Origin: Planctomycetota bacterium
Lineage (GTDB): Bacteria; Planctomycetota; UBA1135; UBA2386
NCBI GenBank assembly: GCA_021776805.1
Contig: JAJFFD010000074.1
Location: 62,001-126,000, forward strand
Length of the DNA: 64,000 nt
Reading direction: 5' to 3'
Shown: in pieces, positions 37,198 to 42,351 of the stretch
How positions within the stretch are numbered: the first letter of the stretch is position 1
How the letters are laid out: each line of letters opens with the position of its first letter
The notes under the pieces: generated by a model
The model's database searches: none
What the model was told of the DNA's origin: nothing
Seen by the model: the letters and a program-made list of their open reading frames with translations, nothing else
Program-made: the position numbers and the translations under genes

Positions 37198-40002
37198 TCA
37201 GCGCGGTGGCAGGACGATGCTGTGCTTGATCAGGGTGGCCCCCAGCTCTTGCGCTTGCGCCTGCAATCCGGACCTGCGCAACTTACCCGATAGATCCTGA
37301 GCCACGTCCTTGGCACTCGTGTCCGTGCTGTTCTTGATTTCAGCGCTTGCGGGGCTGGCGTTGATCCCCTTCACAAGAACCGCAACAGCATCCTCGAGGC
37401 GCTCCTCTGCGACATAGAGGCTGGCCAAACCAGCGGCTGACAAGCAAATATAGTGACCAGCGGAGGACTTGAAATCCGGGTTGCGATCGATTGAGCCTTC
37501 AAACTTGCTGATCGAGCGCTCATAGGCACCCTGAGCCGATTCGCGATCCAGGTTCTCCATAAGGTGTTCACCGGCAACAAAACTGGCCAGACCGGAGAAC
37601 CAGAGCATCGCGGGCCGATCCTCCGGATCGCAGTCGAGAGTTTCATAGACCGCCTCCAGAGCGGAGGCGCCTTCATCATTTAGGACCTGCGAACGTAGGT
37701 GCTCATGCAGGCGCGCAGCGATCGGGTATTTCAGTAGCTCCCGGCGCAGAACGATGGCCTGCTCACCGAAGGCTTCGATTGCGGAAAGAAAATCAAGGTA
37801 TGCCGCTGACTTCTCCTCCGTCGCCGAGGGATGCATCAACATGATCTCATGGGCAGCCCGAATGTCCGGGATCCATGAGGCGGGCCATTCGGATCCATCG
37901 GCCATGGCCTGATAGAGAGCGCGGGTTCTACCCTGAACGAAGACCTGCATGACGTCAGCTGCGAGCGCCGAGTTTGCCTGGCCCTGCAACAGGGGAATTG
38001 CAACCGAGGCCTGGGAGACCGCAGCATCGATATCGCTGAGCATGTAGCTTGCCCAGGCCAGGTATCCCCAAGCCTTGGGCTGAGCGGAGCCAGCGTCGAT
38101 GGCACGCAGCGCAGAGCTACGGACATCTTCGAGTGAGAAGGTGGGATCCCGAGATTCACGGAGCTGCAGCTGCGCGAAACGCATGTTTGCCTCGGCGACC
38201 ATGGTATTGATCTGAGAATCACCGGGCGACTCAACGCGCAGCTTCTCCAACTCATCGAGTCGGCCTTCGAGGCTGTCAAAGTCATCGCCTTCTGCAGACC
38301 TCTCTGCCTCCAAGGGCTGCAGGTTCATGGCCTGACGCCACGCACCCTTCGAAATCAACCGCGACTGCGAGGCCATTCCGGCATGCACACGCATGAGCCG
38401 CTGAGCACGGGCCTTCTTCGTCTCATCCTCGCTGCTTGCAGCGACTCTATGCAAGGCATCGATGATGCCGGCGGTCTCGCCGGGATTACCGTAGGTGAGG
38501 AAGAATGCGCGGGAGAAGATATCCAAGGGCACCTTCTCGGCATGGTTCACCAGTGATCGGAGAGCCTGGCTACGGACCTTCTCAGCCGTATCCGCCAGAG
38601 CCAATCGCAGCAACTCCGGATGCTGCGTTGAACGGCTCGCTGATAGAGCGATGTTTGTCAGGCGAACGCGCTCGCTGACCTCGGAGCGCAAGAAGAGCGC
38701 TTCGAGAAACTCGCGATGCAGAGCCTCGGGACTGCTCAGGAGAGCTGACTTGTCCATGCTGCTCGGATCCCGAACATCCTGGCTTGGCTTGCCATGCTTT
38801 GCCAAGGACTCATCGACAACCTTCATGTCATTCGTCAAGAAGATGTCGAAGAGAATGTTGCCATCCTTGTCGACTCCAACATGCCGCGGTGCCATGCGCT
38901 GGTCGCTGAAGTAGCGCTTGAACAACTCCGGCTCGATATCGATGTGCTCCGCATTGATCACTCGACCAAAGCGCTTGTCCGGGATTCTTCGCCCGCGATC
39001 ATCATGGTCACGCTTGTTCCTACGATCTGGAGAAACGATCAAGGGAACGAAGCCTGCCGCCAGTTTTGCGAACTCCGGATCCCGGTAGCGTAGCCAGGCT
39101 AGACGCTCACTCGCCGACTCACCGTCCATGTTGACACAGATGAGGATCGGCTTGCCGGTGGACTGGGATATAGCCAGAGCATCATCCAGACTTCGTTGCC
39201 ATTTCACCAATGGCGGTTTGAGCTTTGCTTCGGGCGAAATGCGTGGCCCTGGGTCCGCTGCGGCTCCACCCCGACGACCGCCTCCACCACGATTACCACG
39301 CCCTCGAGCACGAGTCGTCAGCTCATCGGCCTGTAGTATTGAATCCGAGTTCTGATCAAGAGCAGCGAATAGTTGCTGCAGATCATCAGCGGTCACTTTG
39401 CTATTGCGGTCTGCGTCCAGATTGCCGTTGAGAGTCAGAAGATAGACACCTGGAGTGAGCGCGCCAGGCTCAGCATCCCGCCCATCGTCCTTCGATCCCT
39501 CAATCCAGGACTTCACAATATCAACCCCGATGGCATCCTCGTCGCCAAGCTCGATGGCTGCGAGGAATGCCTTCCATTCGGCGGCGGAGAGCTCGTGATC
39601 CCAGTTAGCATCACCTCGCTCGAGGGCGATGCGATTCATGTATCCGGCGCGTCGACCTTGGAGCTCCTCACTGCTTAGAGAACCATTCTCGTCTGCATCC
39701 CGGGAGACGAAGATTGCCTTGAGGTCCTTCTTACTCAGCGACCCGTTCTTGTCTTGGTCGAGATTCGTGATCAGCATGAGCGCGAGCACCTGCTGCCGAT
39801 CGAGTTCGCCTTCACCAACCTCGGGCAGAGAAGCAACAAAGGCCTTCCATTCCGCTTCGCTGACTTCCCCGCTGTTGTCGCTGTCTGCAGCCCTGGCCAC
39901 AAACCTGCCGGTGGCGCTACCGAACCCGCCCCCGCCGCCTCGATTCTGAGCGAGTGAGGGTACAGCGAGAGCCAGGATCAAAATGGGCAGGGCAAGCTTC
40001 AT
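37198..40002 (-). CDS. Secreted EF-hand protein with thioredoxin-like domain and helical repeats
   Basis: The protein has 934 residues from the ATG at 40002; that start gives a signal peptide (MKLALPILILALAVPSLAQN) with GGAG upstream, whereas the longer frame does not. It has about six EF-hand loops between residues 38 and 228 (ADSDNSGEVSEAE, NLDQDKNGSLS, SRDADENGSLS, NLDADRNSKVT, ALDQNSDSILQ). A Gly/Arg linker follows (about 232-246). A thioredoxin-like domain lies at 262-395, starting KWQRSLDDALAISQSTGKPILIC but with no CxxC. The rest is helical, TPR-like. Calcium binding and an extracytoplasmic location are likely; no enzymatic role can be asserted. Confidence 0.82.
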   Translation of the reverse strand: MKLALPILILALAVPSLAQNRGGGGGFGSATGRFVARAADSDNSGEVSEAEWKAFVASLPEVGEGELDRQQVLALMLITNLDQDKNGSLSKKDLKAIFVSRDADENGSLSSEELQGRRAGYMNRIALERGDANWDHELSAAEWKAFLAAIELGDEDAIGVDIVKSWIEGSKDDGRDAEPGALTPGVYLLTLNGNLDADRNSKVTADDLQQLFAALDQNSDSILQADELTTRARGRGNRGGGGRRGGAAADPGPRISPEAKLKPPLVKWQRSLDDALAISQSTGKPILICVNMDGESASERLAWLRYRDPEFAKLAAGFVPLIVSPDRRNKRDHDDRGRRIPDKRFGRVINAEHIDIEPELFKRYFSDQRMAPRHVGVDKDGNILFDIFLTNDMKVVDESLAKHGKPSQDVRDPSSMDKSALLSSPEALHREFLEALFLRSEVSERVRLTNIALSASRSTQHPELLRLALADTAEKVRSQALRSLVNHAEKVPLDIFSRAFFLTYGNPGETAGIIDALHRVAASSEDETKKARAQRLMRVHAGMASQSRLISKGAWRQAMNLQPLEAERSAEGDDFDSLEGRLDELEKLRVESPGDSQINTMVAEANMRFAQLQLRESRDPTFSLEDVRSSALRAIDAGSAQPKAWGYLAWASYMLSDIDAAVSQASVAIPLLQGQANSALAADVMQVFVQGRTRALYQAMADGSEWPASWIPDIRAAHEIMLMHPSATEEKSAAYLDFLSAIEAFGEQAIVLRRELLKYPIAARLHEHLRSQVLNDEGASALEAVYETLDCDPEDRPAMLWFSGLASFVAGEHLMENLDRESAQGAYERSISKFEGSIDRNPDFKSSAGHYICLSAAGLASLYVAEERLEDAVAVLVKGINASPASAEIKNSTDTSAKDVAQDLSGKLRRSGLQAQAQELGATLIKHSIVLPPR

Positions 40003-40040
40003 GGGACGCTCCGGTGGGGGCTCGTGAGGGGTTTTGGGCA

Positions 40041-40055
40041 ATGCCTTTAAGGCAT
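40041..40055. promoter_or_regulatory. Palindrome ATGCCTT-T-AAGGCAT upstream of the EF-hand gene
   Basis: A perfect 7-bp inverted repeat around one central base, about 39 bases upstream of the start at 40002 and next to a TTGACC-like element. Position suggests an operator for a dimeric regulator. It could also be chance. Confidence 0.3.
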
Positions 40056-40455
40056 GCATGGGGTCAATAACAGGATCGCCGATTGTCTTTCGGTCGTCAC
40101 CCGCCACTACCATCAAGGGCTGTACCACGATTGTCATCCTCCCCCACCCTTTCTGAGATCCTGGGAACAATCCTCGGGCTGCGACTCGGCAAACCCACTC
40201 AGGGCTTTTACTAGTCAACTAGAGGGAGCAAGCGATGCCTAGGCTGTTATCGAGCCCTCCTGGAGCATCCTGGTCAGTCTCCGCCAGCGTTTCATGACCG
40301 ACCAATACGCTCGGCATGCCTCGACAAATCCACCCCTGACTCGGAGATGCGTTACGAGATCGCAACGACAGGGAGAACAGCAGGCATGCAATCTCTTCAA
40401 ATCCGCCGCAAATAGCGGCAGATCATCTCCCAGTCATCCGCACCAACTCTGGCCC

Positions 40456-40971: not shown

Positions 40972-42351
40972 CTAACGCCCTCCTCTACCGCCCCTCGCCT
41001 TCCCCTTCACGATCTCGAGATCAAGGCTGAAGTCCTGGCGCATGTAAACACAGGCGCCATTCTCACCCTCGCAGACGAAGTAGAGGGCATAGCCGTCGAT
41101 CGACTGCGACCCGACATCCGCCTCTGAATCGATGGCCAACTCGAGCTCAAGTGAGCGCAACTCATCGCTCGAGGGCGAAGATCCCAGGCCCGAACGGAGC
41201 GACTGTTCGGAGAGAGTGTAGCCATCCCCGCTCTTGATCCACAACTCGAGCTCGCCCGCCTCATTGTCCCAGGTTACGGACCGCATGCGATTGGGTTCGA
41301 AGCGAAGATAGACCCGAGCCTTTTGCCCGGCAGTCACCGGGCTCGGCGCAATCACAGCAGAGAAGGTCACGAGACCCGTTTCATCCAGAGGTATCTTCGC
41401 AGCTGGATCCGGCTCCTTGGCGCCGGCGACTACCGCCTCTTGCGAAGCGCCGCCCCGCCCTTCGGGTTCGGCGATTTCCGACCCCTCCAGGTTCACCGCC
41501 AACACAAATGGTTTGCCATTCCGCTTTTCGAGTTCCGCCTGAGCCTCACTCACCCATGTGTAGAAGGGATAGGGCTTCATTAGACGCGGACCGTACTGCT
41601 GCACGCGCCGTCGGAAGATGTAGTTGGCTGGATAGATTTCCAGCGCTTTGGTCCACGCAGTGATGGCATTCTGAAAGTCTCCATCCTGCACTTCGCTCGA
41701 ATCATGCCGGGCGCGAAAGGAGCAAGCCAATCTGAACCAGGCCGGCGCAGAGCTTGGATCCGATTCGATTTCCGATTGGAAGGCGGTGATGGCATCACTC
41801 CAGCGCGAATCCAAGTAAGCCTCGACTCCTGGGCTTGGCTCTTCGAATTCCCCTTCTTCGTCCGGCGCATCATACTCGGCCGAGATGAACTCGCTCTTGA
41901 TCCACGACTCCTTGGGTTGAGTCTTGCGCACAACGCCATGCTCATCGATCGCCCACATGAGGGGGACCGCGTGCACGCCGATGCGGTTGAGTGAGTCCAC
42001 GAGGATTGGGAAGTCCATCTCCTTCCATTCCATGAACAGCTGACAGCGCTCAGGATGTTGCTCCTGAATCAAACCGACAATCTGCACATCACTCTCGTCT
42101 TTGAATTGGCGGTACCACCCGGGCACCTTGCGACGACAGCCTGCTCACCAGGATGCGAACTGCATCAAGAGCACTTTCTGACCACGGAAGTCTGAGAGGC
42201 TCATGCGATCCTGCCCATCTAGGGTCGGGAAGGCCATCTCCGGAAAGACCTCGCCATCCCTGGGGGTCAGGCTCTCCTGCGCTCCCAGTGAGTGGCCGAG
42301 GAAGAGCGTGAGGAGGCTCGCAGAGAGGCTGATACTTCTACCTAGATGCAT
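40972..42351 (-). CDS. Candidate selenoprotein: secreted thioredoxin-fold (UxxC), TPR and DsbD-N-like protein
   Basis: One 459-residue reading frame is interrupted only by a UGA at 42147-42145 (residue 69). Before it are a signal peptide (MHLGRSISLSASLLTLFLG, cleavage near GAQE) and a TlpA/redoxin beginning (FRGQKVLLMQFASW). After it, in the same frame, comes AGCRRKVPGWYRQF, so the UGA takes the first redox Cys of a WCxxC motif, giving WUxxC. The thioredoxin fold continues through DFPILVDSLNRIGVHAVPLMW, with cis-Pro near VP. TPR-like helices follow (about 175-250), then a DsbD N-domain-like region (about 330-455) with Cys427 and Cys434. A SECIS-like hairpin lies just downstream of the UGA. 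The alternative is a nonsense mutation, which would leave two fragments. Confidence 0.68.
42111..42127 (-). promoter_or_regulatory. Putative bacterial SECIS hairpin
   Basis: On the mRNA (minus) strand, 17 bases after the UGA, GGUGCC and GGUACC form a six-base-pair stem (one G-U pair) closed by the five-base loop CGGGU. The loop is 23 bases from the UGA and has G as its second base. Known bacterial SECIS elements lie in this distance range and carry a G in the first two loop positions. This matches the rules but is short and could arise by chance in GC-rich DNA. Confidence 0.5.

Follow-up and report, generated by a model that had tools for sequence, protein, structure and literature searches.

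On the minus strand of the window, the 64-kb stretch of DNA analyzed here, we found a frame of 459 codons (42351-40972) that ends in TAG and contains a single in-frame stop, the TGA at 42147-42145, which forms codon 69 in the context F-A-S-W-U-A-G-C-R (Table 1). A preliminary description of this region had placed the UGA on the codon for the first redox cysteine of a thioredoxin domain, within one continuous frame, and both points held: the motif reads W-U-A-G-C, and relatives also have TGA at this codon. It had further anticipated that a standard gene caller would produce two false genes, and the ORF list from standard calling does divide the gene into 42492-42145 and 42126-40972. Since standard gene calling cuts such genes in two, many annotations of Planctomycetota, Acidobacteriota, Verrucomicrobiota, and Gemmatimonadota probably lack the protein or contain only part of it. 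The gene is present in a single copy in the host genome, a 5.2-Mb MAG that is 91% complete.

Table 1. Features of the gene with an in-frame UGA at codon 69, in window coordinates.
Feature	Position	Strand	Description	Basis
Whole gene	40972..42351	-	Predicted 459-residue Sec protein, ATG at 42351, TAG at 40974-40972	Relatives align full length
In-frame UGA, codon 69	42145..42147	-	Predicted Sec codon, at the first redox position of UxxC
Cys72	42136..42138	-	Resolving Cys of U-A-G-C	Invariant in 78/78 aligned proteins
Signal peptide	42280..42351	-	N-terminal, hydrophobic, ~residues 1-24	Sequence
Thioredoxin domain	41911..42255	-	ResA/TlpA/CcmG-like, residues 33-147	Pfam, Foldseek
TPR-like domain	41524..41832	-	Helical, ~residues 174-276
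Ig-like domain	41008..41370	-	Beta-sandwich, ~residues 328-448	AlphaFold
Second Cys pair	41050..41073	-	C427-x6-C434
SECIS-like hairpin	42111..42127	-	Stem pairs nt 21-26 and 32-37 (T of TGA = nt 1); loop CGGGU

AlphaFold modeled the whole protein as three domains (pLDDT 89.7, pTM 0.89). They follow a hydrophobic N-terminus that was also found in 69 of 78 relatives, none of which has a lipobox. Residues 33-147 scored above the Pfam cut-offs for both AhpC-TSA and Redoxin, and the top Foldseek matches to this region were 3kcm and 4nmu (thiol-disulfide oxidoreductase), ResA (2h19 and 1st9), and the DsbE-like 3gl3; both the fold and the position of the redox motif are those of the ResA/TlpA/CcmG thioredoxin-like proteins. 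The TPR-like domain carries the family motif YIxRRRxQQYGPR-KPYPFYxW, and its Pfam TPR matches fell under the cut-off. The C-terminal domain was modeled with high confidence when folded alone (pLDDT 95.1), and comparisons with known structures returned weak, generic beta-sandwich matches and no clear relative. This domain had been called "DsbD-N-like" in the preliminary description. The N-terminal domain of DsbD is a beta-sandwich with a Cys pair near its end, and the window protein is like it in these two respects, but profile, Pfam, and PDB comparisons did not bear out the identification: hhalign against E. coli DsbD-N gave a probability of 0.4%, only 5 of 68 members touched the Pfam model (best E-value 0.005), and DsbD-N was absent among the PDB matches listed for the C-terminal domain.

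Four residues, U69, C72, C427, and C434, were invariant in all 78 aligned proteins of the GTDB set, which includes the window protein. In the phylum set, 34 of 38 full-length members kept both C427 and C434, four lost both, and none kept one alone; being kept or lost jointly is as expected for a disulfide pair. The four members that lack both cysteines (L063, L054, L040, and L060) retain UxxC.

We found that the host genome encodes a complete selenocysteine machinery, the absence of which the preliminary description had named as grounds for doubting a selenoprotein: selA (478 bits) and the adjoining selD (353 bits) lie on contig G000:C93, selB (349 bits) on G000:C171, and selC, the tRNA-Sec with anticodon UCA (72.8 bits), on G000:C109. 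The host selD (L025) has its own in-frame UGA at 1531, in CAG-U-AAK, and is itself a selenoprotein gene. Genome-wide reassignment of UGA to a different amino acid (Trp or Gly), with no selenocysteine involved, would also be compatible with the readthrough predicted for this frame, but we rejected it as vanishingly improbable from stop usage and the sel genes: long ORFs in the 64-kb window use UGA as their stop more often than either other stop codon (26 of 40), and moreover the tRNA with the UCA anticodon is tRNA-Sec and the UGA falls on a redox Cys codon.

Searches for relatives used a profile built from the part of the protein downstream of the UGA, and were hence blind to codon 69. Same-domain relatives were identified in 42 of 392 sampled phylum genomes, and codon 69 was TGA in all 42 loci read from this sample; these loci were chosen via a TGA-containing motif, but since they stem from the same 42 genomes that the codon-blind search returned, no locus was lost through this choice. 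The same profile identified 222 loci in GTDB contigs, and 79 of the best 80 extended back to codon 69, with TGA in 79/79. The two sets overlap in some genomes and gave 111 distinct sequences after merging; together they comprise ~120 readable relatives in several bacterial phyla, every one with TGA at codon 69. By record title, the 78 full-length members fell into Planctomycetota (27), Acidobacteriota (24), Verrucomicrobiota (13), and Gemmatimonadota (7), with single records elsewhere, these placements being taken from bin titles that may be wrong; the window protein clusters with the Planctomycetota members. A DNA pattern search for a Cys version of the motif found none in 384 genomes, while in a control the same pattern with TGA was found once each in 19 of 20 family genomes and in 0 of 4 others. 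A Cys form of the family may nonetheless exist, as the GTDB codon reading covered the best 80 loci, ahead of 142 weaker ones. Plasmids and IMG/VR yielded no relatives, and a viral fold library gave no useful match.

Two further observations were made in the course of these searches. One locus (L071, G186:C1:818500-821500) holds a broken family copy, with a thioredoxin piece containing the UGA near 819.8 kb and, on that contig as well, a C-terminal piece at about 816.5 kb. Genomes of the same order have a further TlpA-like ORF (L073 and L074) whose in-frame TGA lies in W-U-G-P-C, which is closer to the classical ResA motif.

Taken at face value, a single-copy gene in a MAG, with no other member in the host GTDB family (33 genomes), could represent an ordinary Cys thioredoxin gene damaged by a nonsense mutation or a sequencing error. 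We rejected this explanation, which is now highly improbable: TGA is present at the same codon in all readable relatives across several phyla, the remaining frame is intact and conserved, and Cys versions were not found (0/384 genomes). The preliminary description had argued that a random mutation would be unlikely to strike this codon, and had asked whether homologs encode Cys there alongside other inactivating changes in this strain; the relatives instead have UGA, and the frame is otherwise intact. Because the host GTDB family otherwise lacks the gene, linking its function to a trait conserved in the host is not possible.

A conserved RNA structure was found shortly behind the UGA. RNAalifold of 89 non-redundant sequences predicted exactly one hairpin, with nt 21-26 pairing with nt 32-37, which starts 17 nt behind the UGA. 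In this alignment 96.3% of cells were paired and 22 cells had changes on both sides, and none of 500 shuffles matched this pairing and covariation. The outer stem pairs vary (C-G to G-C and U-A; G-C to C-G), and their changes partly coincide with amino-acid changes on both sides. Among 111 sequences the mean hairpin energy was -9.18 kcal/mol, compared with -6.35 +/- 0.28 when codons were redrawn with the protein preserved. The apical loops read CGGGU, CGUGU, or GGUCU and start 23 nt behind the UGA; this distance, together with a small apical loop that has an early G, presumably agrees with bacterial SECIS elements. The hairpin matched no Rfam model, and a search with Rfam SECIS_1 was uninformative, giving no match in the host genome and none in the control genomes either.

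Genomic context in the family was also surveyed. At seven of 120 loci examined, a selA, selB, or selD gene lay no more than 4 kb away, and three of the seven had tRNA-Sec as well; apart from sel genes no conserved operon was found around family loci, nor did the analysis find a substrate or a partner. selA was detected in 38 of 42 family genomes versus 204 of 350 others (Fisher p 1.8e-5, a guide only, as the genomes compared are related), and the four family genomes in which it was undetected are all fragmented MAGs. In the window itself, a 1006-residue protein is encoded just downstream (37198-40218, minus strand), with regions that, by eye only, look EF-hand, thioredoxin-like, and TPR-like.

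On the sequence evidence we consider it very probable that codon 69 is decoded as selenocysteine; the covarying SECIS-like hairpin adds support to this reading, and we infer that Sec is actually inserted. In the mechanism we propose, SelB with Sec-tRNA would be recruited by the mRNA hairpin that closely follows the UGA, and decoding of codon 69 would then give the full 459-residue protein. Because Sec stands at the first UxxC position in a ResA/TlpA fold, fold and motif together make a fast exported thiol-disulfide reductase, periplasmic in location, the most likely product; in the cell envelope the ResA/TlpA-like domain would use Sec69-Cys72 in thiol-disulfide (selenenylsulfide) reduction. 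We infer both the export and the redox direction. The TPR helices probably serve to bind a partner protein, and the Cys pair of the C-terminal sandwich may exchange electrons, in one direction or the other, with the UxxC site or a partner, suggestions that we hold less firmly than the reductase role.

If Sec is inserted, the protein might instead be a peroxidase-like (peroxiredoxin) enzyme. Selenium favors peroxide chemistry, both AhpC-TSA and Redoxin are above the Pfam cut-offs, and peroxiredoxins such as AhpE were among the Foldseek matches; however, the W-U-x-x-C motif corresponds to that of TlpA/ResA, and in structure searches ResA and DsbE-like proteins matched best, and we regard a peroxidase as unlikely. 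The role of the second Cys pair is harder to judge. We give about an even chance to C427-C434 being a structural disulfide only, outside electron transfer, since no relative of the beta-sandwich that holds the pair is proven to be redox-active, and 4 of 38 full-length members have lost both cysteines and retained UxxC; against this, the pair is kept in 78/78 of the GTDB set while the surrounding domain is only ~40% conserved. We judge an electron relay involving C427/C434 to be somewhat less likely than not. Equally tentative is the idea that this unnamed family is obligately Sec, with no Cys form, because the task of the enzyme, a relay between UxxC and the second Cys pair of a single exported chain, depends on selenium.

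Almost every selenoprotein family has Cys relatives that outnumber it (PMC13188914). Were the family described here truly obligate for Sec, it would be one of very few selenoprotein families without Cys counterparts, and as a large family in at least four phyla in which no Cys form was found it raises the direct question of what Sec does that Cys cannot.

The preliminary description knew of no described selenoprotein family with this domain combination, which is in part correct: no model in Pfam or NCBIfam covers the family, but selenoproteins of the UxxC redoxin and UGC TlpA kinds have been catalogued (PMC13188914, PMC2398784). A 2026 inventory of 119 selenoprotein families includes a UxxC redoxin, Prx-like proteins, and a UGC TlpA family (PMC13188914). 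Listed there are a Prx-like thiol:disulfide oxidoreductase (PF00578, UxxC) and a "Redoxin family protein" (PF08534, UxxC, HEU0032618.1), entries given there by generic domain only, which share with the window family a redoxin-type domain and UxxC; single family members may already stand under HEU0032618.1 or the generic "redoxin" entry. Prx-like 1 and Prx-like 3 have abundant Cys homologs in GOS (PMC2398784), whereas none were found for the window family, and the GOS fusion of Prx-like 3 with Unknown_3 has three Cys including CxxC (PMC2398784), a pattern unlike that of the window family. UxxC redoxin selenoproteins are thus already known, and what is new is a UxxC selenoprotein of three domains for which our searches found no Cys form. 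ResA, TlpA, and CcmG (DsbE) share the fold of residues 33-147 and export (predicted here), with the first Cys of their CxxC corresponding to U69, but they have Cys in place of Sec and are without the TPR or C-terminal sandwich. The closest known system is NF041054, the ResA-like WAxxUGC selenoprotein (UGC-containing TlpA / Prx-like UGC; PMC13188914, PMC2398784). The host genome's second selenoprotein gene (L010, G000:C113, 1105-2241, UGA at 1600, W-U-G-C), in which the UGA occupies the corresponding place, is a member of NF041054 WAxxUGC (306.6 bits, where the cut-off is 300) and has a similar hairpin downstream of its UGA, with loop CGGGU. The window protein, with the motif UAGC, scored 65.8 bits against the WAxxUGC_long cut-off of 300. 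NF041054 and the window family differ in their flanking domains and in the redox motif, U-G-C in the former and U-x-G-C in the latter, and have in common a TlpA/ResA-like domain, Sec as the first redox residue, with W ahead of the Sec and PGW behind, and a hairpin of similar form whose loop is CGGGU.
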